Shown: in pieces, positions 46,761 through 64,000 of the stretch
How positions within the stretch are numbered: position 1 is the first letter of the stretch
Layout of the letters: every line of letters starts with the position of its first letter
Origin: Actinomycetota bacterium
GTDB lineage: Bacteria; Actinomycetota; Humimicrobiia; Humimicrobiales; Humimicrobiaceae
DNA: 64,000 bases
Assembly: GCA_028698215.1 (NCBI GenBank)
Contig: JAQVDY010000002.1
Coordinates: 1 to 64,000 of the forward strand
Direction of reading: 5' to 3'
Position numbers and translations under genes: made by a program
The notes under the pieces: model-generated
What the model was told of the DNA's origin: nothing
The model's input: only the letters and a program-made list of their open reading frames with translations
Databases searched by the model: none

Positions 46761-46947
46761 ACTGTAAGCTTTAACTGCTAATATAATCTTTAGATTAATT
46801 TTTCCCCTAAATACCTGCAGCACAGATATGTTCAAGCTTGCCGGGTATAAATTAATTTAATACAAAATAATAATGTTAATCTCAAGTCTAAATTGCTATA
46901 ATTAACCATATGATAGGAAAATCTTAAACTTATAGCATATCTTAACC

Positions 46948-47574
46948 ATGATTAAAGTATTGGTAACTGATGACCATTTGTTGGTAAGGCAAGGCATAAG
47001 GGCTTTGCTGGAAATGTGTGATGATATTGAGATTGTGGGAGAAGCAGAAAACGGCCACCAGGCATTTGAATTATGTCTAGAATTTAACCCGGATATAGTG
47101 TTGATGGATTTAATAATGCCCGGGTTAAGTGGAGTAGAAACCATTAAAACCATCCTAAAGGATATGCCCCAAGCCAAAATCGTAGTCTTAACCAGTTTTG
47201 TAGATAAGAAACTCATTGAAGAATCACTTAAGGCTGGAGCTATAGGGTACGTATTAAAAAATGTATCCGGAGACGACCTGATAGAAATAATTAGAAATGC
47301 CTATCAAGGCAAACCTACCCTTTCTTCGGAAGCCAGTGATTTCTTAATATCTAATTTAAAGAGGCCTTCAATTGAAGATTTTAGCTTAACCAACCAGGAA
47401 CAAAACATATTATCCTGCCTGGCTGATGGCCTATCCAATAAGGAAATAGCTAAGAAGCTGGTATTAAGCGTATCTACCGTGAAGTTTCATGTAAGCAATA
47501 TATTAACCAAGCTGGGTGCTTCCAGCAGGGCGGAAGCAGTATCCATTGCTCTAAAGAATAAACTGGTCGAATGA
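46948..47574 (+). CDS. NarL/LuxR-type response regulator
   Basis: 208 residues. The receiver domain has the acidic pair DD (8-9), the phosphorylation site D54 in VLMDLIMPG and the lysine in KNVSGDD. The LuxR-type helix-turn-helix (LTNQEQNILSCLADGLSNKE to VKFHVSNILTKLGASSRAEA) binds DNA. It is most likely phosphorylated by the HisKA_3 kinase at 43995, with which it is separated only by the helical gene. Confidence 0.93.
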   Translation: MIKVLVTDDHLLVRQGIRALLEMCDDIEIVGEAENGHQAFELCLEFNPDIVLMDLIMPGLSGVETIKTILKDMPQAKIVVLTSFVDKKLIEESLKAGAIGYVLKNVSGDDLIEIIRNAYQGKPTLSSEASDFLISNLKRPSIEDFSLTNQEQNILSCLADGLSNKEIAKKLVLSVSTVKFHVSNILTKLGASSRAEAVSIALKNKLVE

Positions 47575-47684
47575 CCAGTATAAACCTCTACTTTTTATCT
47601 TAAATTATCCATACTTAATACTATTACCTAAATATTTCCCCCCACCTATAATGATTAAACTACATTTTAAATAGGGAGGGGTGC

Positions 47685-48215
47685 ATGAGATCCATAAAAG
47701 TTTTAATGCTAATAGAAGACTTATTTGATGATAAGGAAGCATTGTATCCTTATTACCGCATGAAAGAAGAAGGCTATGAGGTTACCACGATAGGGCCAGT
47801 TGCTGGAAAAGAGTATCAGGGTAAATATGGCATAACCCTAAAAGCAGATTTATCGGCCAAGGAAGTGGAACTAAATGATGTTTCAGCCTTAATTATTCCT
47901 GGAGGATATGCTCCGGACAAAATGAGGAAAAATAAAGATATGGTAGATGTTGTAAGAAAAATATACCAACAGGGAGGGGTAGTAGCAGCAATATGCCACG
48001 GTCCCTGGATGCTGGTAGAGGCTGACGCAATTAAAGATAAAAAAGTTACAGGAGCAAGCTCCATATCTACCGACCTTAAAAATGCAGGCGGCAGCTTTGT
48101 TGATTGTGAAGTAGTAATTTCTGGAAATATTATTACCTCTAGGGGCCCAGACGACTTGCCTGTTTTCTGTAAATCAATAATCGGTCTTATAAGTCAAAAA
48201 GTTCAAAATAATTAG
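47685..48215 (+). CDS. DJ-1/PfpI-family protein
   Basis: 176 residues of the PfpI subgroup. The nucleophile elbow AAICHGPWML holds C104 and H105, with E11 (LIEDLFDD) near the active site. GGYAPDKMR and ITSRGPDDLP are further PfpI landmarks. Members act as glyoxalase III-type or deglycase enzymes, or as stress proteases; which applies cannot be told. AGGGAGGGG lies upstream of the ATG. Confidence 0.87.
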   Translation: MRSIKVLMLIEDLFDDKEALYPYYRMKEEGYEVTTIGPVAGKEYQGKYGITLKADLSAKEVELNDVSALIIPGGYAPDKMRKNKDMVDVVRKIYQQGGVVAAICHGPWMLVEADAIKDKKVTGASSISTDLKNAGGSFVDCEVVISGNIITSRGPDDLPVFCKSIIGLISQKVQNN

Positions 48216-48824: not shown

Positions 48825-48854
48825 TTGACAATCACAAGTTTGGTAGGTTAGAAT
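48825..48854 (+). promoter_or_regulatory. Predicted promoter of the sugar ABC transporter operon
   Basis: A perfect TTGACA at 48825-48830, an 18-base spacer and TAGAAT (5/6) at 48849-48854, 105 bases ahead of the ATPase gene. TTAATCGT at 48894-48901, downstream of the -10 box, recurs upstream of two other genes of the locus and may be an operator half-site. Confidence 0.6.
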
Positions 48855-48958
48855 TACATAAATAAAATAATTTTATTATAACCCAATAATTACTTAATCG
48901 TATAGACAAGACAAAATAAGCATAATTAAAATCATAAATAGAGAAGGATTAAAGAATT

Positions 48959-50446
48959 ATGGCTGATGAGGTAATTCTTAGCTTGAATAATATTTCCAAA
49001 GGTTTCCCGGGAGTACAAGCCCTAAAAGATGTTTCCTTTGAACTAAGAAAAGGCGAAGTCCATGGAATATGTGGAGAAAATGGTGCCGGCAAATCCACAC
49101 TTATCAAGATTGTATCGGGAGCTTATCAACCAGATGAAGGTGAAATCTACTTTGAAGGTAAAAAGGTGTCCCTGGATCCATATACAGCCATGAACCTGGG
49201 CATACAGACTATCTACCAGGAGCATACCATTTTCCCTCATTTGAGTATTACTGAAAATATTTTTGTGGGAATGGAAATTACCAATAACGGTATTATGCAG
49301 AAAGTGGAAATGCGCAAGAAAACAGCTGAAGTTCTAGAATATCTCCATAGCGACCTCAATCCTGATCAGCTGGTGAACGACCTGTCGTCAGGAGAACAAA
49401 AAATAGTAGAGATTGCCAAGGCTCTGGTGCTGGACCGTAAAGTAATAATAATGGATGAGCCTACCGCTTCTTTTTCGGTGAGTGAAATTGATAATTTGCT
49501 GGAGATTGTAAATAAAATTAAGAAAACCGGAATTGGAGTTATCTATATTTCTCACCATTTGGAGGAAGTGTTTAAAGTTGCGGACAGGATTAGTGTACTA
49601 AGAGATGGAATGCATGTAAAAACTTGCGATGTAGGTGAAGTTGATGAGTCTCAGCTAATTAAGTACATGGTTGGCCGCGATGCATCTGCTTTTTACCATC
49701 GTGAATTTTATGAGCCCGGTGAAACAGTGTTGGAAGTAGAGAACCTCTCGGGTAATGGGGTAAAAGATATATCGTTTGAGGTCAAAAGGGGAGAAATTCT
49801 AGGTTTTGCTGGAATGGTAGGTTCGGGTAGATCTGAGCTTATGACTCTTCTTTTTGGAGGTGCCGAAAAAATAGATGGACGCATTTCTATTTTGGGGCAA
49901 GAGGTTAATTTAAAAGACCCCAGTGATGCAATAAGGAATAAGATGTGCTACATCACTGAAGACCGGCAGTTTACCGGCTTGTTTTTAATTCATTCCATAG
50001 CCCGCAATATAATGATTGCCGATATGGTCAATACCAAAGGATCCACCATAACCCCTACCAATGAGGTAGAGATTGGAGACCGAATGGTTAAGAAACTTAA
50101 TATAAAGGCACCCAATTCACAGATGCTGGCAGGGAATCTTTCAGGCGGCAACCAGCAAAAAGTTGTTTTAGCCAAGTGGTTTAATACCAATGGGGAGATT
50201 TTTATCTTTGATGAGCCCACCAGAGGTATAGATGTAGGAGCCAAACAGGAAATCTATCAGCTGATGACTAATCTCTTAGAAGAAGGCAAGGCTATAGTAA
50301 TGGTCTCTTCTGATATGCCGGAGATAGCTTCCATGAGTGACCGGATTATGGTTATGAAAGCAGGCCAGATTGAAGGGGAGCTAAAAAGGGAAGAAATCAG
50401 TGAGGAAAATATACTTGAGTTATCAATAGGAGGTAAAAAAATATGA
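48959..50446 (+). CDS. Sugar ABC importer ATPase, tandem (RbsA/XylG/MglA type)
   Basis: 495 residues with two ABC domains in one chain, as in ribose-type carbohydrate importers. Domain 1 has Walker A GENGAGKST (about 38-46), signature LSSGEQK and MDEPTASFS. Domain 2 has the degenerate Walker A GMVGSGRSE, signature LSGGNQQKV and FDEPTRGIDVG. It energises sugar uptake. Its stop overlaps the permease start (ATGA), so they are coupled. The sugar cannot be read from the sequence. Confidence 0.94.
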   Translation: MADEVILSLNNISKGFPGVQALKDVSFELRKGEVHGICGENGAGKSTLIKIVSGAYQPDEGEIYFEGKKVSLDPYTAMNLGIQTIYQEHTIFPHLSITENIFVGMEITNNGIMQKVEMRKKTAEVLEYLHSDLNPDQLVNDLSSGEQKIVEIAKALVLDRKVIIMDEPTASFSVSEIDNLLEIVNKIKKTGIGVIYISHHLEEVFKVADRISVLRDGMHVKTCDVGEVDESQLIKYMVGRDASAFYHREFYEPGETVLEVENLSGNGVKDISFEVKRGEILGFAGMVGSGRSELMTLLFGGAEKIDGRISILGQEVNLKDPSDAIRNKMCYITEDRQFTGLFLIHSIARNIMIADMVNTKGSTITPTNEVEIGDRMVKKLNIKAPNSQMLAGNLSGGNQQKVVLAKWFNTNGEIFIFDEPTRGIDVGAKQEIYQLMTNLLEEGKAIVMVSSDMPEIASMSDRIMVMKAGQIEGELKREEISEENILELSIGGKKI

Positions 50447-51498
50447 AACAGTCGCCTGAACCGGAAAGAAGAAAAGGTTTTGCGCTTTTTGGAAGGGGAG
50501 AAAATTCTACGGTTTTGATGATTACCATTTTTTTCTTCATTGCCATAGTGCTTATACAGGTTATTACCAGTGCTGTTGCTGGAGGCGTAACTTACCCCTC
50601 GTTTATAAGCCCAGTTAACTTATTGAATATATTTATGCAGGTGGCTGCTGTGGGAATTATGGCTATGGGTATGTCTGTAGTAATGATTGGCGGAGGAATA
50701 GACCTATCGGTTGGTATGTTGGTTTCCCTGGTAGCTCTTTACTTTGCCAAAGCTTTTAGGGACTGGAATTATCCTGTAGCTGTGGCTATTGCTTCTATTG
50801 TAGTAATAGCAATTTTACTGGAAACAGCTATGGGCTGGATAATTTCCCGCTTTAAGGTAGAGCCTTTTATTATTACTCTGGGTGGTATGATAGCATTCAG
50901 GGGGATTGCTCTCCTAATTTGCCGTTCGCAGGAAATTAGTACCCAGGGCATCCTGAATCCGCTAAAAGCTAATCTAATTGAAGGGGCAAAAGGGCCATCA
51001 GGGTTATCACTTACTATACCTGTGTATGTTATTGTTTTCCTAGTTATAACCGTGATTATGTGGTGGCTGCTGAAATACACCAAGTATGGCAGAAGGGTTT
51101 ATGCGGTAGGAGCAAACCGTAATGCTGCCTATCTAGCCGGTATTGATGTAAAAAATATTATGATGTCTACCTATGCTCTAAACGGATTTCTGGTTTCTAT
51201 CGCTTCCTTCATGTTGTTAGCTCGAGTTAATACCGCTATAATAACTGTAGGACAGAATTTGGAAATTGATGTTATTGCTGCCACGGTTGTAGGCGGAGTT
51301 GCACTTTCAGGAGGCAAAGGAAATATTTGGGGTACTTTTATTGGAGCGATTTTATTGGGTTCTATTGCTAATGCTATGAATATCCTTCGTCTGCAAAGCG
51401 AGTGGCAGTTTGTAGCTAAGGGTATAATTATAATAGCAGCAGTTACTGCCGGTGCTATTGTTCAGGCCAGAAGCCAGAGGATGAAACAAATCAGATAA
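50443..51498 (+). CDS. Sugar ABC importer permease (RbsC type)
   Basis: 351 residues, eight to ten membrane helices. Family landmarks MGMSVVMIGGGIDLSVG, FIITLGGMIAFRG, YGRRVYAVGANRNAAYLAGI and VGGVALSGGKGNIWGT (the loop contacting the ATPase) are all present. A single permease gene implies a homodimeric channel, as in the ribose importer. Confidence 0.93.
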   Translation: MKQSPEPERRKGFALFGRGENSTVLMITIFFFIAIVLIQVITSAVAGGVTYPSFISPVNLLNIFMQVAAVGIMAMGMSVVMIGGGIDLSVGMLVSLVALYFAKAFRDWNYPVAVAIASIVVIAILLETAMGWIISRFKVEPFIITLGGMIAFRGIALLICRSQEISTQGILNPLKANLIEGAKGPSGLSLTIPVYVIVFLVITVIMWWLLKYTKYGRRVYAVGANRNAAYLAGIDVKNIMMSTYALNGFLVSIASFMLLARVNTAIITVGQNLEIDVIAATVVGGVALSGGKGNIWGTFIGAILLGSIANAMNILRLQSEWQFVAKGIIIIAAVTAGAIVQARSQRMKQIR

Positions 51499-51544
51499 GG
51501 TAAATTCATAAAAAAATAATTAGTTTTTTGGAAAAATATATTTG

Positions 51545-51568
51545 CTGTAACTTATTTAATCGTTACAG
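51545..51568. promoter_or_regulatory. Inverted repeat in front of the binding-protein gene
   Basis: CTGTAAC and GTTACAG, perfect 7-bp arms around 10 bases that include TTTAAT. It lies in the 118-base gap between permease and binding-protein genes. It could be a repressor operator or an mRNA hairpin raising the amount of binding protein relative to the membrane parts. TTAATCGT (51556-51563) overlaps it. Confidence 0.45.
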
Positions 51569-51616
51569 TATTATATAAATAGAAATGATAACAAGAAAGG
51601 AAAGAGGTAAAAAGCA

Positions 51617-52858
51617 ATGAAGAGAATATTAGTTCTCCTAATCGTAGTTGCTTTGGCGATTACATTCTCATTCGCAGGTTGTACAGCACAAGCACCTGCG
51701 GAAGAAGCGGCTGAAGCTCCTGCGGAAGAGCCTGCAGCTGAAGAACCTGCAGCTGAAGAACCTGCAGCGGAAGAGCCTGCAGCTGAAGAGCCTGCAGCTG
51801 AAGAACCTGCAGCTGAAGTACAGACTCTGGATATAGGTTTCTATGCTGACGGCGCAGACTCCTACTATCAGGTAATGGTAGACACTATGCAGGCATGTGC
51901 AGATGCTGATCCTGAAACAGAGTGGACAATCGATTATAAAGTTGGACAGAACACCGCAGCAGAACAGCTGCAGGCAGTTGAAGACTTTATAACCGCTGGA
52001 TATGACGCTATAGTAGTTATCCAGAACTCTGCTGATACAACATCTGAGTGTATAACCAAATGCCAGGCAGCAGGCATTCCTTACTTCGGCGCTGCCCACA
52101 GCTTTGCATCAGCTCCAAATGCAACTGATGCTGCTGGATCATGCTGTTATAACTTTGTAGAAGCCGGTGTCTATGCTGGCGAAGACGCTTTAGCAAGAGG
52201 CGTTAAGAAAGTTATAAATATTGAAGGCCAGCTGGGCCAGGGTAGTGCAGGCGCACAAACACTGGGCTTTTTGAAAGCATATGAAGATGCTGGAATGAGC
52301 CTGGGGGGCCCTACTGCTGAAGAAGTAGCTACCAAAAAAACTGAAGCTAGCCTGGATGGAACTCAGGATATAGAAGTTGTATTCTGGGCTTCAGGCGGAT
52401 GGTTCTCAGATCCTGCACAGAAAGCAATGACTGATGCTATCACATCTCTCGGAGTTGACGGTTTTGATGGTGCATATGTGCAGAACGATCCTATGATGGA
52501 AGGTGTTCTGATGGCCATGGAAGAAGCAGGACTAAATTCTTCTGACTACTGGTTAGGAGCATCAAACGGTAGAGAGATCTCATGGCAGTGGGTTAAAGAT
52601 GGCGTAATAACCATGGATGTTAACCAGACCGCAGCTCTTGAAGGCGACACCCTGTATCAGCAGGTTAAAGCTCACTTCAATGGCGACGAATACAGAAAAT
52701 ACATTCATCCATACTTAACACCTTATAATGTTGATAATATTAACGATGTTGCCCTAGTTCCTTTCTCCGATGTAGATGCATACATGGCTGGAAGAGAAGC
52801 AGGCGACTTTGTTACTGATATCAACGATCCTAAATTTGTTGATCAGGAAGGATTTTAA
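51617..52858 (+). CDS. Sugar ABC substrate-binding lipoprotein (RbsB-like)
   Basis: 413 residues. A signal peptide with lipobox SFAGC is followed by an Ala/Glu/Pro-rich linker made of repeated AEEPA units (about residues 37-66). The periplasmic-binding-protein type 1 fold starts at TLDIGFYADG. NTAAEQLQAVEDFITAGYDAIVV and the later FDGAYVQND follow the ribose-binding pattern. The linker probably spaces the binding domain from the membrane or across the cell wall. Ligand unknown; the downstream genes suggest a sugar or sugar acid with a branched or four-to-six-carbon chain. Confidence 0.9.
   Translation: MKRILVLLIVVALAITFSFAGCTAQAPAEEAAEAPAEEPAAEEPAAEEPAAEEPAAEEPAAEEPAAEVQTLDIGFYADGADSYYQVMVDTMQACADADPETEWTIDYKVGQNTAAEQLQAVEDFITAGYDAIVVIQNSADTTSECITKCQAAGIPYFGAAHSFASAPNATDAAGSCCYNFVEAGVYAGEDALARGVKKVINIEGQLGQGSAGAQTLGFLKAYEDAGMSLGGPTAEEVATKKTEASLDGTQDIEVVFWASGGWFSDPAQKAMTDAITSLGVDGFDGAYVQNDPMMEGVLMAMEEAGLNSSDYWLGASNGREISWQWVKDGVITMDVNQTAALEGDTLYQQVKAHFNGDEYRKYIHPYLTPYNVDNINDVALVPFSDVDAYMAGREAGDFVTDINDPKFVDQEGF
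51725..51814 (+). repeat. Six tandem 15-bp repeats coding for the AEEPA linker
   Basis: Six consecutive copies of GAAGARCCTGCAGCN, in frame, encoding Glu-Glu-Pro-Ala-Ala. Near-identity at DNA level, including third positions, suggests recent expansion by slippage. Confidence 0.95.
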
Positions 52859-52952
52859 GGTTAACTAGTAAGATAAAGGATGACAGAAGGACTTAATAGA
52901 AGCTGGATAAATGTATTAGAAGAAATTAAGTCTAACAGCAGAGATACAATAA

Positions 52953-52993
52953 AAATAATCAGGGGTTCTATATAGGCCCCTGATTATTTTTTT
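52953..52993 (+). terminator. Rho-independent terminator after the binding-protein gene
   Basis: AAATAATCAGGGG, an 11-base loop and CCCCTGATTATTT running into a T-run. Thirteen base pairs. It separates the transporter operon from the enzymes that follow. Confidence 0.95.
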
Positions 52994-53131
52994 CCTGGTT
53001 ATTTTGGGCATTTTGTTATTTTATGTGTTTAGTAGTTTAATGGTTTCAAAAGCAAAGCTATGGTTAAGAAGCGATCACAGGACTAAAACCATAAAACCTA
53101 TAAATCAGAAACATATTCAAGGAGGAAAAAT

Positions 53132-53962
53132 ATGGGTAAAAGATATACCAAGCAAGAAGTTGTGGATCGATTACAGGCGGAAATAAAAAAAGGTAAGCCA
53201 TTATTTATGCCTAATTGTGGAATGGGCATTTCCGCTAAATTTCAGGAGAAAGGAGGCTCAGATATCATTTGCATATCTCCTACCAGCTACTGGAGGCTCA
53301 AAGGGCAAGGTTCTTTGGCCGCTTTTCTGCCTTTCTATGACATAAACCAGGTAGTATTTGACCTCGCTAAGGAAATTGTGCCGGTAGTAAGTGAAGTACC
53401 TCTAATTGGCCTTACCGGCCCCCATAACCCATTGCTGCCACACCAGAAGCACCTGGAAATATTAAAAGAGTTAGGCCTCTCCGGTATTAATCCTTTTATA
53501 AGTAAACTTTATGGAGAAAGCTTCAGTGAACAGATAGAGCATATAGGAATGGGCTGGAAGAATGAGGTGGAAATAGTGGAAGTTGCCCAAAAAATGGATA
53601 TGTTTACCTTTTCCTATGCATTTTCGCCCGAAGAAGCATCTATTTTAGCCCAAGCTGGAGCGGATATAATAGCTTCCCATGTGGGCTCTACTAAAGGCGG
53701 TTCCATTGGGGCCAAAACATCATTGACCTTAGAGGAAGCTGCCCAGCTAAGCCAGGAGATTTTTGATGCTGCCCGAAAAGTTAATAAGGATGTAATCCTG
53801 TTTGCACACGGGGGACCCATTGAAGGACCTAAAGAAGTGGAATATGTATTTAAAAATACAGATGCACAAGGATTCACTGGTGGCTCCGCTGCTGAAAGGA
53901 TGCCTATAGAAAAAGCAATACTGGAAGTAACCCAAGCTTATAAAAATGTACCAATGAAATAA
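53132..53962 (+). CDS. PF09370-type 'PEP hydrolase' TIM-barrel protein, copy 1
   Basis: 276 residues. Family blocks: MPNCGMGISAKFQEKGGSD, ISPTSYWRLKGQGSLAAFLP, the catalytic-looking FAHGGPIEGP and GFTGGSAAERMPIEKAI. The family is an isocitrate-lyase/PEP-mutase-like TIM barrel annotated as PEP hydrolase or 'TIM-barrel signal transduction protein'; a biochemical role is not established. GGAGG precedes the ATG. It is followed after 20 bases by the Tm-1-like gene, and these two domains form one protein, Tm-1, in plants. Compared with copies 2 and 3 it has CIS in place of GLY before the tyrosine/tryptophan block. Confidence 0.85.
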   Translation: MGKRYTKQEVVDRLQAEIKKGKPLFMPNCGMGISAKFQEKGGSDIICISPTSYWRLKGQGSLAAFLPFYDINQVVFDLAKEIVPVVSEVPLIGLTGPHNPLLPHQKHLEILKELGLSGINPFISKLYGESFSEQIEHIGMGWKNEVEIVEVAQKMDMFTFSYAFSPEEASILAQAGADIIASHVGSTKGGSIGAKTSLTLEEAAQLSQEIFDAARKVNKDVILFAHGGPIEGPKEVEYVFKNTDAQGFTGGSAAERMPIEKAILEVTQAYKNVPMK

Positions 53963-53982
53963 ACAAAATTGAAGGAATAAAC

Positions 53983-55368
53983 ATGAATGATAAAAAACCA
54001 AATATTTTATGCATAGGCGTACTGGACACCAAGGGTGACGAAATAAAGTTCCTAGCCCGGGAATGCCAAAAACTGGGAGCTAACGCCAAGATAATGGAGC
54101 TGAGCCTGGGTGGTGAGGTAGGATGGGCCGATATCTCTTTGTCTGAAGTGCTGGCAGAAGATGGAATACATAAAGAGGATGTATTTAAAGCTTCAAGGAC
54201 TGAAGCCATAGAGATTGTGGGAAAAGCTGGAGCTAAAAAGATGGCCAAGCTTTATGAAGAAGGCCAGGTAGATGGAGTTATCGCCTGGTCTGGATCAGTA
54301 GGAACTACAGTCAGCACTATGACTATGAGGGCCCTACCTATAGGAGTCCCCAAGATAATGCTTTCCACTTGTGCAGCCAGCGATGTTAGCTCCTGGTTGG
54401 GAAGTAAAGATATTTACATCTCCAACCCCATATCGGAAAAGGGGGTTAACCGGGTTACCAGGAAAATTGTGGCTAATGCCACCGCTGCTATCGTAGCTAT
54501 GGCCAAAGTGGGAGAAATATCTGAAAAAGAAGCCAAGCCTTTGGCTGCGGTAACCGCCTATGGTACTACTACCCCTGCAGTTATGAGATTATCGAAATAT
54601 ATGGAAGAAAAAAGAGGCTTTGATACCATAACCATACATCAGGTAGGTACCGGTGCTACCATGGAGGACTTGATAAGGTCCAGGATGATTACTGCTGTTT
54701 ACGACATTACTATTGGAGAGCTCAGCAACAACTATTATGGCAGTATATATGGGATTGATCCAGACTGGGAAGGAGAAAGGCTGACTGCTGCCAGTGATAT
54801 GGGTATACCCCAGATAGTATGTCCGGGAGGGCTGGCCCAGTGTGCTTATGGTCCCCTTAAGACCATGCCCGGCAAGATCATGGAGGAATATAAACAAGGC
54901 AAGAGGGTATCTTACCAGAACTCCAGGGAGCCCTATATACATAATTCAGCAGTTACTATTATTGCGCCTACCCTGGAAGAAACAGAATTATTTGCCACAG
55001 AGATAATAGAAAAGCTGAATAGAACCACTGGTCCTACTGCCCTGGTACTTCCTCTCAGGGGATGGAGCGCTTATGACCAATCGGTAGAGCAGGCTACAGT
55101 GGAAAGAGGATGGGCTAAGGAAAAAGGTGATGGCCCGGTTTGGATACCGGATCCCGATAATCCAAAGTGGTCTAAGAGAGCTACTACCATGTGGAACATA
55201 TTCAAGCAAAAAATAGACAAAGATAATCCTAATCTGGATCTTATAGTATGCAATAACCATATTTTGGATATTGTTTTTACTGATTTTTTAAACCGGATTA
55301 TGGGGGATATGCTGGATGGAAGATGGACCAAAGGGTCATACCGGGATATGGAGAACATAGTAGAATAA
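53983..55368 (+). CDS. Tm-1-like ATP-binding protein (UPF0261, PF06792)
   Basis: 461 residues. The N-terminus ILCIGVLDTKGDEIKFLA is the most typical UPF0261 stretch. AWSGSVGTTVSTMTMRALPIG, PKIMLSTCAASDV and the later QVGTGATMEDLI (about 220-235) are further blocks. The tomato homologue binds ATP through this domain and blocks tobamovirus replication; bacterial function is unknown. Placed directly after a PF09370 protein and inside a sugar-utilisation locus, a role in activating or phosphorylating a substrate is possible but inferred. A strong terminator follows 19 bases after the stop. Confidence 0.87.
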   Translation: MNDKKPNILCIGVLDTKGDEIKFLARECQKLGANAKIMELSLGGEVGWADISLSEVLAEDGIHKEDVFKASRTEAIEIVGKAGAKKMAKLYEEGQVDGVIAWSGSVGTTVSTMTMRALPIGVPKIMLSTCAASDVSSWLGSKDIYISNPISEKGVNRVTRKIVANATAAIVAMAKVGEISEKEAKPLAAVTAYGTTTPAVMRLSKYMEEKRGFDTITIHQVGTGATMEDLIRSRMITAVYDITIGELSNNYYGSIYGIDPDWEGERLTAASDMGIPQIVCPGGLAQCAYGPLKTMPGKIMEEYKQGKRVSYQNSREPYIHNSAVTIIAPTLEETELFATEIIEKLNRTTGPTALVLPLRGWSAYDQSVEQATVERGWAKEKGDGPVWIPDPDNPKWSKRATTMWNIFKQKIDKDNPNLDLIVCNNHILDIVFTDFLNRIMGDMLDGRWTKGSYRDMENIVE

Positions 55369-55386
55369 AAACTAAAAACATCTGTA

Positions 55387-55420
55387 AAAAATACCCTGGT
55401 TTAACCTCCAGGGTATTTTT
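55387..55420. terminator. Bidirectional terminator between the Tm-1-like and MFS genes
   Basis: AAAAATACCCTGG, eight bases, CCAGGGTATTTTT: 13 perfect pairs with A- and T-runs on both sides, so it can end transcripts from both strands. The stop codon of the MFS gene lies in its loop. Confidence 0.95.
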
Positions 55421-56606
55421 TTATTTTATTTGTATAAAAAATTTTAACCAGGATCATAACCGTGGTCATTCCCATAGCAATAGGGGCTATGGCCATAGAC
55501 CACGACATATGGTACTGGGAAGTGAGCCTGGTGAGAAAAGGGGCAGCTGACACCCCTATATTTACGGCGGCAAATACAATACTGGCCAATACCCCCCGTC
55601 CATGGGGATAGATAGTGCTGGTAGATGAGATACCTAAAGTAATAATGCCTGAACAGCCTATACCTGCCATAAATATGGCGGCCAGGGACCCTATGGTTTG
55701 GTTTAGGGGGATAAAAACAGCCATGGATACTATAGCAATAATGGATAATATCAGCATTATATAGTTGGATTTGATTTTTCCCGCAATAGCTCCAGTAATC
55801 ATCCTGCCTATCAGTACTGCCAGCCAGAACAGGGAAGCAGCCCAACCTGCAGTGTTTACATCAAACAATTTTTCTACTCTTAAGAAAGTGGGGGCCCAGG
55901 TGGCTACTACTGTTTCAGAAATGCAGTAGAACAGAAGCAGCAGGCATCCCAGAACAAATATGATGTTTCTCTGGCGGTCTGTAAATATGTCTTTTAGGCT
56001 TATTCTTTCTTCCTCCTCTTCTTCCGGCTGGCCTTTTTTGCCCCTTTTTAACCAAATATATAGAGCCATAATTATAAAGGTTAAAAATATCATGATGTAA
56101 TAGGAGTATCTCCAGTTAAGGCTGTTGTTTATCAGCAGGGAAGCAATAAGGGGGGCTATAAAATTTCCTATAGGATAGAAGCTTAGAAAAATAGTGGTCA
56201 GCCGGTCTTTGTTTTTTATTTTGTTTTCTAATACGTATTTAGTGGCCTGGATCCAGATCACACCTGCTGCGTAACCTAACAGGAAATATAATATATAAAA
56301 AAGATATAAATTGTTAACCAAACTCAATAAAAACAGAATAGGCACTATAAGCACATATCCGGCCATTATTACCTTAAACTTTTTAAATTTACGGTTATAC
56401 ATAACTGAAGTAAGCTGGCCCAATATCATCCCTATGGTAAAGAAGGTAAATATCAGGCTTAAATCTGCAGCATTGTTTCCTGTGCTGGCCCCAATTTCTA
56501 ACAGCATGGGGGAAGCAGTCATAAAATAAACGGGCACTATAAAAATAGCGAGGTAATTAGGAATTTCCCTTAAATAATCAATAAAATTGTCTTTTCTTTT
56601 TTCCAA
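55401..56606 (-). CDS. MFS transporter
   Basis: 401 residues with about twelve membrane helices and a charged central loop (PEEEEEERISLKDIF, about 200-215). The loop motif between helices 2 and 3 is only weakly like the MFS consensus (GQLTSVMYNRKFKK). The start is TTG at 56606 with AAGGG upstream. It is transcribed away from the RuBisCO-like gene. Its position inside the locus suggests that it carries a substrate or product of the pathway; the direction of transport is unknown. Confidence 0.82.
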   Translation of the reverse strand: MEKRKDNFIDYLREIPNYLAIFIVPVYFMTASPMLLEIGASTGNNAADLSLIFTFFTIGMILGQLTSVMYNRKFKKFKVIMAGYVLIVPILFLLSLVNNLYLFYILYFLLGYAAGVIWIQATKYVLENKIKNKDRLTTIFLSFYPIGNFIAPLIASLLINNSLNWRYSYYIMIFLTFIIMALYIWLKRGKKGQPEEEEEERISLKDIFTDRQRNIIFVLGCLLLLFYCISETVVATWAPTFLRVEKLFDVNTAGWAASLFWLAVLIGRMITGAIAGKIKSNYIMLILSIIAIVSMAVFIPLNQTIGSLAAIFMAGIGCSGIITLGISSTSTIYPHGRGVLASIVFAAVNIGVSAAPFLTRLTSQYHMSWSMAIAPIAMGMTTVMILVKIFYTNKIKKYPGG

Positions 56607-56890
56607 ATCCCTTTTCTATTCCAGATTAGGCTTCAATTTTAATTCATTAAGTTCAAGAATATTGAACACTATATCAAATTTAAACTTTTTAATAAACTAA
56701 ATAGTGGGCTAAAAAAGTAAGGGCAAAATATTTGTAAAACCATTAACCAGCGGATGATAAATATCCCTAGAGAAAAGTCTAGGGCAGCAGCATCTTCCTG
56801 GCCTTAAACTTTACCAATTTGATATTTGCACCATTATATGGTATTAAATTTAGAATATTATGACACAATTACTATAAGAGGAGCATTCTT
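56607..56890. promoter_or_regulatory. Divergent control region between MFS and RuBisCO-like genes
   Basis: A 284-base region with three clean palindromes: GTTCAA-N5-TTGAAC (56651-56667), CCCTAGA-N6-TCTAGGG (56765-56784) and ACCAT-TAT-ATGGT (56830-56842). The first lies near the MFS gene, the last near the RuBisCO-like gene. They are candidate operators for a shared regulator. I cannot assign -35/-10 boxes with confidence. AAGAGGAG precedes the RuBisCO-like ATG. Confidence 0.5.
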
Positions 56891-58174
56891 ATGAGCCATT
56901 ATCAAATAAATGAACCGGTAGGTTTGCCGGAAGAAATATATGAAGGAGATTATATAATTGCTACCTATTTTTTCCAGGCTCCCCGGGGAATAGATATCTA
57001 CCAAAAGGCCAAGTCCTTTGCAGTAGGGCAAACCTTGGGTACCTGGCTTCCTGTTCCTGGCATAACTGATGAAATGAAGAAAAAATACGGGGGCAGGATT
57101 GTAGCTTTGTATGATATACCCCCGGCAGAGCTGATACCTGACGAGCCAGAGCAGACTGCCCATATAGTACAGATTGCATTTCCGGATCATAATTTTGATA
57201 CCCAGTTTCCGATGCTTATGGTTACTTTGCTGGGAAATGATGTATCAACTTCTGCCCAGGTAAAATTACTGGATATAAAGTTTTCCCATCACTTTTTAAA
57301 GGCCTTTCCGGGGCCTAAATTCGGCATTCCCGGGTTGTACGAGTACTTTAAAATAAACCGGAGGCCAATTATTTTGAATATGGTTAAACCCTGCCTGGGG
57401 TACACTCCCCCGGAAGGGGCCAAGATTTTTAAAAGCATAGCCAGGGGTGGAGTAGATATTATTAAAGATGATGAGCTTTTAGCCCAAACCTCTTATAGCC
57501 CCATCCTGGACCGGGTAAAACAGTACACTGAAGCAGCCAGGGAAGTAGAACAAGAAACAGGGCATCTGGTTCGCTATTGCGTTAATATTACCGATAGGCA
57601 GGATAAGATGATCGAACATGCTAAGATAGCCAGGGAAGCGGGTGCTGGAGCGCTTCTGGTAAACTTTGTAGCCACAGGACTAGGTGCTTTGCAGGCATTA
57701 AGGGAAACAGATATTGATATCCCTATTCTGGCTCACTATGCTTCCGCGGGTGCCATTACCGAGTCTCCTTTTACCGGGCTGTCCACCCAGCTGCTTCTAG
57801 GAAAACTGTCCAGGCTGGCCGGTGCTGATATGTGCATGTTTAGTTCACCTTACAGCACCTATCCTTTTATTAAAAGAAGATATTCGCAGATTGCGGATAC
57901 CCAAAGGTTGCCACTGGGATCCATTAGGGAAACCATGCCGGTCATAGGGGGAGGAATGACTCCACGGTCGGGGGAAAGAGTAGTAAATGATTTAGGTAAA
58001 GAAGTTGTACTGGCAGTGGGAGGAGCCATATTGGGCCATCCCCTGGGGCCTACCGAAGGGGCAAAGGCTATGATGGAAGCAGCAGAGGCCCTGGGCCAAG
58101 GCGTACCTCTTGACCAGTGGGCTAAGGAAAAAGGGAGCGAAGCCCTGAAGATATCACTGGAGAAATGGCAATAA
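56891..58174 (+). CDS. RuBisCO-like protein (form IV), probably a decarboxylase or isomerase of a sugar-acid phosphate
   Basis: 427 residues with the RuBisCO large-subunit fold. The segment NMVKPCLG keeps the lysine matching K175 (K166 here). The carbamate/metal triad is intact: IIKDDE with K192, D194 and E195, equal to K201, D203 and E204 of RuBisCO. GTW (T51, W52), GND (N116) and AVGGAILGHPLG (phosphate site) are kept. R295 is Tyr (AHYASAG), loop-6 K334 and H327 are absent, and S379 is Gly (VIGGGM). So it cannot carboxylate RuBP but can still bind and enolise a phosphorylated substrate. The isomerase gene 16 bases downstream suggests OiaX-type decarboxylation of 3-oxo-isoapionate-4-phosphate; other form IV functions (MtnW, OiaT) remain possible. 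Confidence 0.9.
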   Translation: MSHYQINEPVGLPEEIYEGDYIIATYFFQAPRGIDIYQKAKSFAVGQTLGTWLPVPGITDEMKKKYGGRIVALYDIPPAELIPDEPEQTAHIVQIAFPDHNFDTQFPMLMVTLLGNDVSTSAQVKLLDIKFSHHFLKAFPGPKFGIPGLYEYFKINRRPIILNMVKPCLGYTPPEGAKIFKSIARGGVDIIKDDELLAQTSYSPILDRVKQYTEAAREVEQETGHLVRYCVNITDRQDKMIEHAKIAREAGAGALLVNFVATGLGALQALRETDIDIPILAHYASAGAITESPFTGLSTQLLLGKLSRLAGADMCMFSSPYSTYPFIKRRYSQIADTQRLPLGSIRETMPVIGGGMTPRSGERVVNDLGKEVVLAVGGAILGHPLGPTEGAKAMMEAAEALGQGVPLDQWAKEKGSEALKISLEKWQ

Positions 58175-58190
58175 CAGGGAAAGGCAAACA

Positions 58191-59003
58191 ATGAATTACC
58201 AAAAAAAAATGGTGGTAGGTTCCAGCTGGAAGATATATTTTAAATCTATTACCAAGTCTATAGAATACATAGAGGTTTTGGGGAAAAATCTAGATTTTGT
58301 GGATGAGTCCAAACTGGAAATATACACCTTACCGGACTTTATATCCCTGGGGGCAATTTCAACCTTGGAGCGTAATCCTCTTATCCATCTGGGTGCCCAG
58401 GATATGTTCTGGGAAGATCAAGGCCCATATACCGGTGAAGTATCACCTTTATTGCTAAAGGATATTGGGTGTAAATATGTTTATATCGGCCATTCAGAAA
58501 GAAGAATATATTTTGGTGAAAATGACCATACTATTAACCAGAAAGTTCTGGCTGCCTACAGAAATGGTTTGATCCCCATTCTACTGGTGGGTGAAACTTG
58601 GGAGGAATATAAGGCAGGACAAACTGCGGAAGTTTTAAGACAGCAGCTGGGTATTGCTTTGGAAGGCATTCCTGCTTCTTTTCTTAAAGAACTGGTACTG
58701 GTCTATGAACCCCGGTGGGCTATAGGCAAAAAAGAAACTGCTTCCCGGGAAGTAATCCAAAAATCCCATCTATTGGTACAGGAGGCTATTGGTCAATTAT
58801 ATGGCCAGGACATGTCTTCAGTGGCCAGGGTTATATATGGGGGAAGCGTTAACTATGACAATAGCCAGGACATAATAAAAATTCCTGAAGTGGATGGCTT
58901 GGCCATAACCAGGGGTGCTTTAGACCCTGCAGAATTTGTAAAAATTATAAAATTAGTAGCACAGGAAGCAGGGGAGCGTGCGGGTAGAAACAATCAGGGT
59001 TAA
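58191..59003 (+). CDS. Triosephosphate-isomerase homologue, L-erythrulose-1-phosphate isomerase type
   Basis: 270 residues of the TIM family. Catalytic residues are kept: K14 in VVGSSWKIY, H101 in IGHSERR and E173 in VYEPRWAIG; the phosphate loop is GGSVN. It differs from glycolytic enzymes by having one extra residue before WK (GSSWK in place of GNWK) and Val for the usual Cys before GET. The same GxSWK arrangement is known from L-erythrulose-1-phosphate isomerases (EryH/LerI). It follows the RuBisCO-like gene, whose predicted product in the OiaX reaction is L-erythrulose-1-phosphate. A 26-base overlap joins it to the next gene. Confidence 0.82.
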   Translation: MNYQKKMVVGSSWKIYFKSITKSIEYIEVLGKNLDFVDESKLEIYTLPDFISLGAISTLERNPLIHLGAQDMFWEDQGPYTGEVSPLLLKDIGCKYVYIGHSERRIYFGENDHTINQKVLAAYRNGLIPILLVGETWEEYKAGQTAEVLRQQLGIALEGIPASFLKELVLVYEPRWAIGKKETASREVIQKSHLLVQEAIGQLYGQDMSSVARVIYGGSVNYDNSQDIIKIPEVDGLAITRGALDPAEFVKIIKLVAQEAGERAGRNNQG

Positions 59004-59910
59004 AAAAAGCAAGCCGGTAGATGGCCTGATCAGCAATCCCCTTAAATGCCGAAAAGGTGAGCTTAAGTTAGTTTTGCTGGGAACCGGGAATCCCTTTGGA
59101 GGATTTTACCGTACCCGTCCAGCCAGCATACTGGTAGCCGGAAGTCATTATTTTTTAATAGATTGTGGCAGCGGGGCCGTACAAAGACTTCTGCAGGCGG
59201 GGGTATTTCCTTCCCAGGTAAACCATTTATTTTTTACCCACCATCATGCGGACCATAATGCTGGTTTTATAGATTTTGTCTATACCAGCTGCTTCCCCCG
59301 GGAAGTGCCAAGAAGGGAACAAAAATTGATGGTACTAGGACCTACCAATACGGTTCAAGTATTAACCAAGATGCGGGATTCCCTTGATTATGATTTTAGC
59401 ACCAGGCCTTCTTTTACCCCGGAGGTAACAGAGATAGAGTATAAGCAGTCTAATGGAGGGCTGGTCTACCAACAGGATGATGTTAAGGTGTTTGCCTTTG
59501 AGGTGGACCATGGCAATTACAGCCCTGCAGTAGGCTACCGGTTTGAATACTTGGGGAAAGTGGTGGTTTTCTCTGGCGATACCAGGCCCTGTGAGGGTAT
59601 AAGGCGTTACTCGAAAGGTGCCCATATCTTGGTGCATGAATCCTATAACCCCCAATTCGTTAAACTTGCTGGAAGTATTTATGGCAATAGCGATACGGCT
59701 GTCATTATTAATAATGCCCAAAAAAAGCATACTTCGGTTCAAGAGGTGGCCCAGTTAGCTGCCCAATGCCAGGTAAACCACCTGGTGCTTACCCATCATA
59801 TACCCTCCATTACCCCTGCCCGGGAAGTGGAAAGGGAATATATAAAGGGGATGAAAAAGATTTTCAAGGGGCCTATTACCGTAGGCAGGGATTTAACCTT
59901 AATATCTTGA
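58978..59910 (+). CDS. Metallo-beta-lactamase-fold hydrolase (RNase Z/arylsulfatase-like)
   Basis: 310 residues. The metal motif is THHHADHNAG, with further ligands in FSGDT and LTHH, as in the RNase Z-like branch. The entry LGTGNPFGGFYRTRPASILV is typical of that branch. Many members hydrolyse lactones, phosphodiesters or sulfate esters. The start is GTG at 58978, inside the end of the isomerase gene, with AGGGGAG upstream, so it is translationally coupled. A lactonase role in the pathway would make sense but is inferred. Confidence 0.8.
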   Translation: MRVETIRVKKSKPVDGLISNPLKCRKGELKLVLLGTGNPFGGFYRTRPASILVAGSHYFLIDCGSGAVQRLLQAGVFPSQVNHLFFTHHHADHNAGFIDFVYTSCFPREVPRREQKLMVLGPTNTVQVLTKMRDSLDYDFSTRPSFTPEVTEIEYKQSNGGLVYQQDDVKVFAFEVDHGNYSPAVGYRFEYLGKVVVFSGDTRPCEGIRRYSKGAHILVHESYNPQFVKLAGSIYGNSDTAVIINNAQKKHTSVQEVAQLAAQCQVNHLVLTHHIPSITPAREVEREYIKGMKKIFKGPITVGRDLTLIS

Positions 59911-59969
59911 ATTAAGGTTAACAAAATATTTAAATAAAGTGAAAATATAGATAGTTTATGGAGGAATAG

Positions 59970-60818
59970 ATGATTATAGGGATCAGCAGCATGATTTTGG
60001 GAGACCAGGAGAAAATACTGGACAGGGATGAGATAAGCTTTTTGGCAGGTTCAGGCTTAAAATATTTAGAACTATCCAACTATCATAAACTGGATGAGAG
60101 ATCTATGGGATTTTTAAAGGATTCCGGGATAGCTTTATATTCCATACATGCTGATTATAATGATTGTGATATTTCAGAAACAAACTTAACAATCAGAACC
60201 AAAGGCATGGAGGATGCCTTGTCCAGGATAGATATAGCAGCCAGGTGGGGAGCAAAGATTTTGGTCGTACATCCTGGAGGATGGTTTGATGACCATTCCG
60301 AAGGTGAAAGAACCCTAAACTGCATGGAAAGCCTGGTCAGGATATGCAACTATGCAGAACCAAAGGGGATTAAAGTGGCAGTGGAAAATCTGCCCATGGG
60401 GTTTTTCGGAGAGGATTTAGAAACCTTAAGCTGCATACTTGCTGAGGTTAGAAAAAAGGTAAATAGGCCAGAAAATATAGGGATATGCCTGGATACCGGG
60501 CATGCTCATTTAACTGAAAATCTATATGATATATTGTCAGAGTTTAAGGATTCAATCTTTACCATGCACCTACAGGACAATAATGGGGACCAAAACCGCA
60601 GTAAAAAAGACGCTTTGGATGACCTGCACCTGCCTCCGGGGCAAGGTGGCATAGATTGGCGGCGTTTTTTTATTACTTTGGAGGATATAGGCTACAGGGG
60701 GGCTATTATCTTTGAGCTTAAAGGGGATTCCATAAAAGGCCAGGACAAAAATTTTATTATGGGTAAGCTTAGGGAATTCTTAAGCCGGGAACCCTATTTT
60801 AGAAATAAGATAAGGTAG
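59970..60818 (+). CDS. Sugar-phosphate isomerase/epimerase-type TIM barrel (AP endonuclease 2 family)
   Basis: 282 residues of the xylose-isomerase-like family. Metal-ligand segments are VHPGG, VENLPMG (Glu), CLDTGHAH (Asp, His), MHLQDN (His) and FELKG (Glu). Members isomerise or epimerise keto-sugars or decarboxylate sugar acids (such as OiaC). GGAGG precedes the ATG. Sequence alone does not say which reaction applies. It is the last gene before a 279-base gap. Confidence 0.8.
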   Translation: MIIGISSMILGDQEKILDRDEISFLAGSGLKYLELSNYHKLDERSMGFLKDSGIALYSIHADYNDCDISETNLTIRTKGMEDALSRIDIAARWGAKILVVHPGGWFDDHSEGERTLNCMESLVRICNYAEPKGIKVAVENLPMGFFGEDLETLSCILAEVRKKVNRPENIGICLDTGHAHLTENLYDILSEFKDSIFTMHLQDNNGDQNRSKKDALDDLHLPPGQGGIDWRRFFITLEDIGYRGAIIFELKGDSIKGQDKNFIMGKLREFLSREPYFRNKIR

Positions 60819-61097
60819 GTTAAGGGTAGAATTCTAAGGAACAAGCTGGGAAATTACATTATTTTTACTTTTCGTGCTGATTGTTAAACGATTAAATCTT
60901 TGATACTATTTTAATTAAAGGTAAGTTAAAAATGGTTAAAAGAAGTACTTTTGTTTGCTGCAGAAGCATTTAAATAAGCTGTTTTTAACTAAAAATTAAG
61001 CATTTCCTTATCTGACAGCAGCAGGCATATTAATAAAATTTATAGGTCCTTTTTATCATTATTATCAATTAGATTTATCCCTAAACAAGGAGGAACA
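60819..61097. promoter_or_regulatory. Intergenic region ahead of the second enzyme group
   Basis: A near-palindrome TTAAAC-GATTAA (60884-60895, one mismatch, central CG) resembles LacI-family operators and shares ACGATTAA with the reverse complement of sites at 48894 and 51556. A promoter would be expected here, since a new group of three genes starts after it, but no clear -35/-10 pair stands out. GAGGA precedes the next GTG. Confidence 0.4.
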
Positions 61098-61964
61098 GTG
61101 AATAAAAAATTTACCAGGAAAGAAGTTATTGAAAGGTTAAAGCAATCCATAAAGAAGAAAAAAGCAATCCTATTGGCCAGTGCCGGGGACGGTTTTACTG
61201 CCAAATTGCTGGAAAAAGGCGGAATTGACTTAATAGGACTATATAATACCGGAGTATATCGGCATTACGGCATAGGTTCACTTTCCGGCCTTCTGCCCAT
61301 AGGCAGGAACAATCAAATGGTTCTAGATTATGCCCCTTCGGTCATACAGAGACTTAACGGCACCCCTCTGGTGGCAGGATTTTGCGCCCAGGATCCAGCT
61401 ACTTTATGGGAGCAGTTATTTCGGGAGATAAAGGATATGGGAATTATCGGGGTCCAAAATTTCCCTACAGTAGGATTAATTGATGCCGGCTCAGTATTCA
61501 GGATGAATTTGGAAGAATCAGGCCTGGGTTTTGATCAGGAAGTTGAAATGCTAAGACTGGCCCATAAGATGGACCTTTTTACAGTGGGCTATTGCTTTAC
61601 CCCGGATGAAGCTAGAGCGGTTGCTGAAGCAGGAGTGGATATTGTTGCTGTTCACTGTGGATGCACAACGGGAGGTCTTACCGGGGTTAAATCAGTAATG
61701 ACTATCCAGGATGCCATAGGTATCACTAATGAATTTATAGAAATTGCCAAGGAAGCCAGGCCTGAACATGATTTTATGGTTATTACCCATGGGGGCCCAA
61801 TGGATAATGTGGAAAATTCCCAAAAAGTGCTGGCTGGTACTGAAGCTGTAGGTTATACCTGCGGTTCCAGCATAGAAAGAACCGCGGTAGAGCCTGTGCT
61901 GATAAAAGCTACCCAGGAATTTAAGAATATGGATATAAATGTACCGGACTGGTTTAAATTGTAG
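61098..61964 (+). CDS. PF09370-type 'PEP hydrolase' TIM-barrel protein, copy 2
   Basis: 288 residues, start GTG at 61098 with AGGAGG upstream. Blocks: SAGDGFTAKLLEKGGIDLIG, YNTGVYRHYGIGSLSGLLP, FCAQDP, ITHGGPMDN and CGSSIERTAVEP. It is closer to copy 3 than to copy 1 in the first block (DLIGLY). The tryptophan seen before R in the other copies is tyrosine here, and the acid after HGGP is shifted. This suggests the three copies act on related but different substrates. Possible partner of the amidohydrolase that follows. Confidence 0.83.
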   Translation: MNKKFTRKEVIERLKQSIKKKKAILLASAGDGFTAKLLEKGGIDLIGLYNTGVYRHYGIGSLSGLLPIGRNNQMVLDYAPSVIQRLNGTPLVAGFCAQDPATLWEQLFREIKDMGIIGVQNFPTVGLIDAGSVFRMNLEESGLGFDQEVEMLRLAHKMDLFTVGYCFTPDEARAVAEAGVDIVAVHCGCTTGGLTGVKSVMTIQDAIGITNEFIEIAKEARPEHDFMVITHGGPMDNVENSQKVLAGTEAVGYTCGSSIERTAVEPVLIKATQEFKNMDINVPDWFKL

Positions 61965-62022
61965 GCCGGCGGTTAAATTAAGATTAAGGTTAAGCATAAA
62001 AAAATTGCAAATGGAGGCTTAA

Positions 62023-62907
62023 ATGTTAATAGATGCTCATACCCACCTGTGGCCTGGTGACGAGACCACGCCTTCAATGGTGGCTTATTTGAAGAAAAGA
62101 AATATCTGGGATCCTTCCAGCAGGGCCTTAACAGCAGAAGGTTTGCTGGAAGTAATGGATAAGGAAGAAATTGAAATCAGCCTGGTTGCCGGTATATCTT
62201 TAAAGACCGGGGCTGATAATGAGGTATACCGAAAAGTAAATAATTACCTGGCATCAGAGATAAATAAAGGCAACCAACGTCTTTTGGGATTAGCAGTAGC
62301 TGATCCTTTAGGGGGCCAGTCTTCCCTGGACCTTATTAAGGAATTTATTGAAGATTTTGGTTTTAAGGGATTAAAGCTGCACCCTTCATTTCAGGAATTC
62401 TACCCCCATGACCAAAAGCTATATCCCTTGTACGAATTAATGGAAAACTATAGGCTGCCAATTCTTTTCCACACCGGTTATATAGGTATTGCCCCCTTTA
62501 AAAATTATTATTCCATGCCGGAATATTTGGATCAGGTAGCCGGAGACTTCCCTAATCTTACCATATTGCTGTCCCATGCAGGTAAGCCCTGGTTTGACGA
62601 TACTGCAGTCATGCTCAGGAAGCATGCTAATGTGTATGTGGATGTTAGCAGTAATATGGGGCGGCCACAGGATTTAGCCTATAAGCCTATGGAAGAATTC
62701 TTATATAAAGTAAAGATATGGGTAGGTAATTTTGACCGGTTACTGTTTGGTTCGGACTATCCGTTATATGACCAGAGGGACACCTTATCTGCTATATACA
62801 GAGCGGCTGATTCTCTAAACCAAACTTATAATAATTTTATTTCAGATGACGATATGGAAAAAATATTTTACAGAAACAGTCAAAAATTAATAGATTCGTG
62901 GGGGTAA
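62023..62907 (+). CDS. Amidohydrolase-family metal-dependent hydrolase (amidohydrolase 2)
   Basis: 294 residues of the PF04909 family. DAHTH at the N-terminus, KLHPSFQEF, FHTGYIG, LLSHAGKPW and GSDYPL near the end supply the metal ligands. Members are hydrolases, lactonases or decarboxylases of small organic acids. GGAGG precedes the ATG. It is followed after a single base by PF09370 copy 3, so the two are probably co-translated. A lactonase or decarboxylase step is plausible but unproven. Confidence 0.82.
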   Translation: MLIDAHTHLWPGDETTPSMVAYLKKRNIWDPSSRALTAEGLLEVMDKEEIEISLVAGISLKTGADNEVYRKVNNYLASEINKGNQRLLGLAVADPLGGQSSLDLIKEFIEDFGFKGLKLHPSFQEFYPHDQKLYPLYELMENYRLPILFHTGYIGIAPFKNYYSMPEYLDQVAGDFPNLTILLSHAGKPWFDDTAVMLRKHANVYVDVSSNMGRPQDLAYKPMEEFLYKVKIWVGNFDRLLFGSDYPLYDQRDTLSAIYRAADSLNQTYNNFISDDDMEKIFYRNSQKLIDSWG

Positions 62908-62908
62908 A

Positions 62909-63742
62909 ATGGCAAAGAGATATTCAAGAGAAGAAATACTGCAACAGCTTCGGGAGCAGGTTAGCAACAATAAAGCCGTATTTATGTTTGGAGCAGGCAT
63001 AGGGCTTACTGCCAAATGTGCAGAATTAGGAGGGGCGGACCTAATTGGCCTTTATTCGACTGCCTTTTGGAGGATGATGGGTACTTCTTCCCTTATGGCC
63101 TGGTTGCCTTATTCCAATGCTAATGACGAACTGGTAAAATATTCAAAAGCCATTCTTCCCGTGGTCAAGCATACACCATGCATAGCGGGCATAGGTGCCC
63201 ATGATCCTACCAGGGACATAAATTTATTTGTAGATGAGATTATGGATTTGGGTTTTTCAGGAGTCAGTAACGAACCTTTTGTTGGTATTTATGGAAAAGG
63301 TTTTGCCGATATGCTGGAAAATGCGGGGATTGGCTTCTCCCGGGAAGTAGAATTGATTAGGATAGCACACCGCAACAATATTTTTACCCTTGCCTGGACG
63401 TTCGATGCTGGCCAGGCAGAAAGAATGGCGGAAGCAGGAGCAGATGTAATTGGGGCTATGATTGGTTTGACTGCTGGTGGTTTAAGCGGAGCCAAGGATA
63501 CCATAACACTGGAAAGTGCGGTCCGGGATACCCAAGAGATTTGCAAGGCTGCTCAAAAAATAAACCCTGATGCCATTATTATTACCCACGGGGGACCATT
63601 TGAAGACGTAAAAACGGCTCAATATTCTATTTTGCATACAGATGCGGTGGGTTATGCCTCTGGTTCCAGCGGAGAAAGAATTCCTACCGAAAAGGCAATT
63701 ATCGATATTACTAAAGAGTATAAGGCAATGAGCACTGGTTAA
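62909..63742 (+). CDS. PF09370-type 'PEP hydrolase' TIM-barrel protein, copy 3
   Basis: 277 residues. Blocks: FGAGIGLTAKCAELGGADLIG, YSTAFWRMMGTSSLMAWLP, ITHGGPFED and YASGSSGERIPTEKAI, the closest of the three to the family pattern. Its start lies 1 base after the amidohydrolase stop. Between this gene and 63915 nothing is recognisable. Three diverged copies in one locus point to a central role of this family in the pathway. Confidence 0.85.
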   Translation: MAKRYSREEILQQLREQVSNNKAVFMFGAGIGLTAKCAELGGADLIGLYSTAFWRMMGTSSLMAWLPYSNANDELVKYSKAILPVVKHTPCIAGIGAHDPTRDINLFVDEIMDLGFSGVSNEPFVGIYGKGFADMLENAGIGFSREVELIRIAHRNNIFTLAWTFDAGQAERMAEAGADVIGAMIGLTAGGLSGAKDTITLESAVRDTQEICKAAQKINPDAIIITHGGPFEDVKTAQYSILHTDAVGYASGSSGERIPTEKAIIDITKEYKAMSTG

Positions 63743-63915: not shown

Positions 63916-64000
63916 ATGAATGATGCAGAGTTTCTAAAGGAATTAATACGACGTAAGAATAGTATTGACCGCAAAGAAAAATTTGAACAGTTCTTTAAAT
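63916..64000 (+). CDS. Start of an unidentified gene (partial)
   Basis: An ATG at 63916 opens a frame of at least 28 codons running off the window, with charged residues (AEFLKELIRRKNS) and no stop. No clear ribosome-binding site. It is too short to identify. Confidence 0.4.
   Translation, partial: MNDAEFLKELIRRKNSIDRKEKFEQFFK

Follow-up and report, generated by a model that had tools for sequence, protein, structure and literature searches.

What does a RuBisCO-like protein (RLP) do in a gene cluster that also encodes a Tm-1-like protein and three PF09370 barrels? The metabolic role of most RLPs is not known, and the same holds for the Tm-1/PF09370 pair, which in land plants forms a single fused protein, known in tomato as an antiviral factor. 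The cluster lies in a stretch of 64,000 nucleotides (the window) on contig C2 of a 1.78-Mb, 98% complete genome. The nearest named relatives of this genome are Actinomycetota MAGs including Candidatus Humimicrobium, and the source is a Humimicrobiia-type Actinomycetota genome.

The gene set that the earlier note had described between 48825 and 63742 is real. All 13 named genes are intact ORFs at the given positions in the ORF list of the window, and profile searches matched their Pfam families far above cut-off (Peripla_BP_4, PF09370 three times against a model cut-off of 33.8 bits, UPF0261 N and C, MFS_1, RuBisCO_large N and C, TIM, Lactamase_B_2, AP_endonuc_2 and Amidohydro_2). The ABC ATPase and permease were identified from ORF translations, with no HMM. 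The end of the cluster had been set too early at 63742, as it runs on to a PAS-LuxR regulator and an OYE-like flavoprotein (63916-66203). The features are as follows.

48959..50446, plus strand: ABC importer ATPase (ribose/CUT2 type); ORF; a 54% identical gene is present in the G368 RLP locus.
50443..51498, plus strand: ABC importer permease; ORF with a 4-base overlap with the ATPase gene.
51617..52858, plus strand: ABC substrate-binding protein (CUT2 sugar type); PF13407, 90 bits; CUT2 sugar-binding structures matched weakly.
53132..53962, plus strand: PF09370 copy 1; 277 bits; orthologues of 67-79% identity adjoin Tm-1 in G060, G105, G148 and G351.
53983..55368, plus strand: Tm-1-like/UPF0261 protein of a long (461 aa) subfamily; PF06792 and PF23189.
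55401..56606, minus strand: MFS transporter; PF07690; neighbour of RLP in G060, G105, G223 and G004.
56891..58174, plus strand: RLP of a putative new clade; PF00016/PF02788; K166, K192, D194 and E195 retained.
58191..59003, plus strand: TPI-fold isomerase (TIM), distinct from glycolytic TPI; PF00121 and loop motifs.
58978..59910, plus strand: metallo-beta-lactamase-fold (MBL) hydrolase; PF12706; a 59% identical gene lies immediately 3' of RLP in G368.
59970..60818, plus strand: xylose-isomerase-like (XI-like) TIM barrel of epimerase/isomerase type; PF01261; 37-39% homologues in G060 and G105.
61098..61964, plus strand: PF09370 copy 2; 290 bits; 75% orthologue in G223.
62023..62907, plus strand: amidohydrolase (Amidohydro_2); PF04909; metal ligands retained in the alignment.
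62909..63742, plus strand: PF09370 copy 3; 315 bits; 64-75% orthologues in G223 and G019.
63916-64806 (the window holds 63916..64000), plus strand: PAS-LuxR regulator; family match on the continuing contig.
64944-66203, beyond the window: OYE-like flavoprotein; family match; among the most conserved members of the cluster.

The sizes of the intergenic gaps suggest several transcription units, namely the ABC genes, PF09370 copy 1 with Tm-1, the reversed MFS gene, RLP-TIM-MBL-XI, and PF09370 copy 2 with the amidohydrolase and PF09370 copy 3. Directly upstream of the cluster (window 43995-48215) are genes for a sensor kinase, a LuxR-type response regulator and a DJ-1/PfpI-like protein.

Close RLP homologues, of 58-71% identity, were found in 11 of 40 genomes of the class. 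They recur next to MFS, Tm-1, PF09370, amidohydrolase, XI-like and OYE genes, and the locus is thus a conserved, rearranging catabolic cluster in Humimicrobiia. In both G060 and G105, XI-MFS-RLP is convergent with Tm-1 and PF09370, with a DeoR regulator, an amidohydrolase and a ComB-type phosphatase further out; the OYE gene adjoins XI in G060, and an OYE fragment lies at the contig edge in G105. G004 has MFS-RLP convergent with a Tm-1 fragment at the end of the contig, and the gene row in G223 reads PF09370-3, ComB, TIM, PAS-LuxR, OYE, MFS, RLP. In G368, RLP-MBL is accompanied by a divergent ABC importer and by PF09370 and Tm-1 genes from other subfamilies. Several further genera of the family (g2, g4 and g7) share the synteny, so that chance clustering is untenable. 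The ComB-type (PF04029) phosphatase gene kept in the clusters of relatives (L040:15784-16650; L047:1197-2093) is missing from that of the window.

The genomes with RLP also differ from the others of the class in gene content. An OYE gene of at least 77% identity is present in 8 of 11 RLP genomes versus 1 of 29 others (Fisher p 1.8e-5), the long Tm-1 in 6 of 11 versus none of 29 (p 1.2e-4) and PF09370 in 8 of 11 versus 5 of 29 (p 0.0017), values that ignore shared ancestry and incomplete bins and are indications only. The co-occurrence of families proposed earlier was thus borne out in homologous loci.

By family, the RLP belongs to form IV, as indicated by its PF00016/PF02788 matches and by Foldseek TM scores of 0.8-0.9 to RLPs. 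A residue survey showed that residues needed for carboxylation in RuBisCO are replaced (E60 by G, K177 by C, R295 by Y, H327 by M and K334 by T), whereas the equivalents of K175, K201, D203, E204 and H294 are retained (K166, K192, D194, E195 and H282). The protein is thereby predicted to carry the carbamate/Mg site and an equivalent of the K175 base. With this base and the Mg site in place but without R295, H327 and K334, the protein is expected to enolise its bound substrate rather than carboxylate it. Its predicted structure (pLDDT 80) is nearest to those of MtnW, with TM scores of 0.84-0.91.

Two characterised RLPs were considered as identities for the protein. MtnW was ruled out by the score (277 bits against its model, for a cut-off of 514), by N116 in the column of MtnW Lys98, the catalytic base of that enzyme, and by the lack of mtn genes in the cluster. 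OiaX, of which the RLP had been proposed to be an analogue, was rejected as well: the protein scored 175 bits against the curated model, for a cut-off of 700, it falls outside the OiaX clade, R295 is replaced by Tyr, and a DUF1537 kinase is missing from the genome.

In a tree of 45 rows, with long branches flagged, the RLP clade had a support of 100/100. It is sister (96/95) to a group of Actinomycetota RLPs, and the joint group joins MtnW (100/98), with OiaX outside. Given the long branches, exclusion from the OiaX clade is surer than the exact placement next to MtnW. On this evidence the protein appears to represent a new subfamily of form IV relative to the sequences in the tree, among which neither the Rhodospirillum-type isomerase nor the Hakuba RLP (see below) figured. 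In the sister clade, an FGGY-family sugar kinase adjoins RLP in every one of the 23 Actinomycetota loci checked, all of the main subgroup, a linkage suggesting that RLPs of this branch act on phosphorylated ketoses. The residues retained and lost, together with this kinase linkage, argue that the RLP of the window is probably an enolising, isomerase-type protein.

Other settings of RLP genes were observed along the way. Sister-clade loci (L053-L058, L064-L078, L121, L122) often also have a saccharopine-dehydrogenase-like gene, making up a second uncharacterised RLP system. The genes next to another subclade (L059:5823-11101) encode a class II aldolase, a rhamnulokinase-like kinase and a protein resembling sugar isomerases, which weakly matched sulfoquinovose isomerase. 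The neighbours of a more distant RLP (L063:201-8231), as read by eye from translations, comprise two UroD-type methyltransferases, a corrinoid protein and proteins of pyruvate dehydrogenase type.

The TIM gene starts 16 bases after RLP, an order also seen in G276, in which the TIM gene (L050:5290-5780) is split in two frames, probably by an assembly error or as a pseudogene. As the canonical glycolytic TPI sits elsewhere in the genome, in a GAPDH-PGK-TPI run on contig C20, the TIM protein of the cluster is an additional, non-glycolytic one. It retains the catalytic Lys, His (GHSERR) and Glu (YEPxW), with GSSWK in place of GNWK, loss of the GTG of loop 6, and TR in loop 8 where TPI has GG and LerI GR. 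Three of these features recur in LerI: the TPI Asn before W/F-K and the GTG of loop 6 are missing there too, and loop 8 has an Arg. The protein had been called LerI-like, which is only partly borne out. Overall score favours TPI, and identity to LerI (35-36%) does not exceed that to TPI (37%); two loops of the active site nevertheless depart from TPI, one toward LerI, and the protein likely acts on a non-triose substrate. The proposed flow to a four-carbon ketose phosphate is weakened by the rejection of OiaX, which leaves this partial resemblance to LerI as its one basis.

PF09370 copy 1 and Tm-1 are adjacent, with a 20-base gap, and both families matched are those of the UPF0261/PF09370 pair. 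Among the 40 genomes of the class, the long Tm-1 subfamily is found only in six, each with the RLP clade. All three PF09370 copies of the window retain the conserved residues of the family. A recent tandem duplication was ruled out, as each copy has its own orthologues of 64-79% identity elsewhere; because of these separate orthologues, the three copies probably do different jobs. Five stretches of plasmid PF09370 loci showed pairing with Tm-1 and at times sugar-ABC, Gfo/Idh or cupin genes, with no RLP. A further PF09370 copy is present on contig C11 with Tm-1 and an MtaA-like methyltransferase (L006:8428-11613), an arrangement also found in G019 (L093). PF09370/Tm-1 genes of another subfamily (L099, L100) are linked to genes of pyruvate dehydrogenase type and to those for a formyltransferase and a class II aldolase-like protein.

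Uptake of a sugar by the ABC importer had also been proposed. The importer genes are present, but the MFS gene is the transporter conserved in the closest syntenic loci, and the importer is linked only in G368; ABC uptake as a core feature of the cluster is therefore doubtful. The structure matches of the binding protein are too weak for naming its ligand. Those of the amidohydrolase, to the Amidohydro_2 decarboxylase/hydratase group, carry little weight, as the model is of low confidence (pLDDT 62).

The reading that we favour, with slightly better than even confidence, is that the cluster mediates catabolism of a carbohydrate-derived compound, with the new form IV RLP at its centre as an enolase or isomerase; we infer the reactions and their order. 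The MFS transporter, and perhaps the ABC importer too, would import the compound, which the XI-like, MBL and amidohydrolase proteins may isomerise, open and trim. The RLP would act as a Mg-dependent enolase/isomerase, binding a phosphorylated ketose (or keto-acid) at its carbamylated-Lys/Asp/Glu metal site, with K166 aiding proton transfer, and would release an isomerised sugar phosphate without fixing CO2. The TPI-fold isomerase could then catalyse a ketose/aldose or ketose/ketose phosphate step. PF09370 and Tm-1, usual partners, may perform another step; the OYE flavoprotein would add or remove electrons. Against this reading, the cluster offers no kinase gene for the phosphorylation step, and the nine FGGY kinases of the genome include no orthologue of the RLP-linked one (best 31%). 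A more specific version, namely that in anaerobic carbohydrate degradation the ATP-binding Tm-1-like protein and PF09370 barrels supply a phosphorylated or cleaved intermediate for the RLP isomerase, is a tentative proposal that we hold at low confidence.

The locus may instead be two unrelated modules side by side, RLP-TIM-MBL-XI and OYE-regulator-PF09370-amidohydrolase-Tm-1, acting on different substrates, as three genomes break the linkage. The OYE, regulator, amidohydrolase and PF09370-3 genes are present in G019 without RLP, G276 has RLP followed directly by TIM without OYE or a clear PF09370, and in G351 the RLP is unlinked to the OYE, Tm-1 and PF09370 genes. Gaps of 270-285 bases and the reversed MFS gene also lie between the units. 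Nevertheless, the halves are relinked in differing gene orders in G060, G105, G223 and G004, and they co-occur beyond chance. We thus consider separate modules unlikely. Several genomes link RLP to MFS and to Tm-1-PF09370, which argues for a single cluster.

Two known pathways offer other readings, and we regard both as improbable. In methylthioadenosine or 5-deoxyadenosine salvage, the RLP would be the MtnW enolase or a Rhodospirillum-type 5-methylthioribulose-1-phosphate isomerase. MtnW is its closest characterised relative by sequence and fold, and the genome has an MtnA-family gene, so that methylthioribose chemistry may occur elsewhere in the cell; this gene is nevertheless on another contig, in a housekeeping setting without mtn neighbours, and the low MtnW score and loss of Lys98 speak against salvage. 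Also implausible is a D-apionate-type pathway, in which the RLP would be an OiaX-like 3-oxo-isoapionate-4-phosphate decarboxylase and the TIM protein LerI, ending at D-erythrulose-4-phosphate. The known plasmid OiaX operon (OiaX, DUF1537 kinase, TPI-like, RpiB, dehydrogenase, ribose-type binding protein) resembles the RLP-TIM order and ribose-type importer of the window, the TIM loops share the LerI features described above, and RpiB homologues, which are common, are present in the genome. Yet the RLP is outside the OiaX clade with supports of 98/93 and 100/99, lacks the R295 kept in OiaX and scores far below the OiaX cut-off, and a profile search for the DUF1537 kinase (PF07005) gave no match anywhere in the 98% complete genome.

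The recurring cluster joins the RLP and the Tm-1/PF09370 pair with sugar-type transport, a TPI-like isomerase and an OYE flavoprotein, a small set of enzymes that can be tested and might reveal what the RLP and the pair each do. If Tm-1 and PF09370 do feed the RLP isomerase, this would be the first metabolic role for this RLP clade and for an orphan pair shared with plants.

In agreement with the earlier note, neither the families scanned nor the literature searched, which included few subscription papers, turned up a described pathway that combines these genes; within the same scope, no function was found for the Tm-1/PF09370 pair. The closest characterised RLP is MtnW (2,3-diketo-5-methylthiopentyl-1-phosphate enolase), about 37% identical to the RLP and with the same metal site and K175 equivalent; the RLP differs from it by the Asn at Lys98, a score under the family cut-off and the lack of methionine-salvage neighbours. 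The OiaX/OiaK/LerI pathway for D-apionate likewise pairs its RLP with a TPI-like isomerase, LerI, which the TIM loop changes resemble, and with a ribose-type importer. It differs in that the RLP of the window is in another clade without an OiaX-type active site, the genome lacks OiaK, and the PF09370, Tm-1, OYE and amidohydrolase genes are extra. RLPs of this clade without assigned function were reported earlier (PMC7325909), and their link to PF09370, Tm-1 and OYE was not found described. In that report, the surroundings of a form IV RLP in a Hakuba actinobacterium (UBA1414 clade) include genes for a DeoR-type regulator and an epimerase-domain protein (PMC7325909); compared by description only, this RLP is alike in being of form IV and from related Actinomycetota, and the gene set of the window is not described there. 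Lastly, UPF0261 and PF09370 are a co-evolving pair, fused in plant Tm-1, and 97.4% of genomes with the TIM-barrel (PF09370) protein also carry UPF0261 (PMC5028733). The adjacent Tm-1-like and PF09370 genes of the window resemble such pairs, from which the cluster differs by its three PF09370 copies, its 461-aa Tm-1 and the linkage to RLP and OYE.
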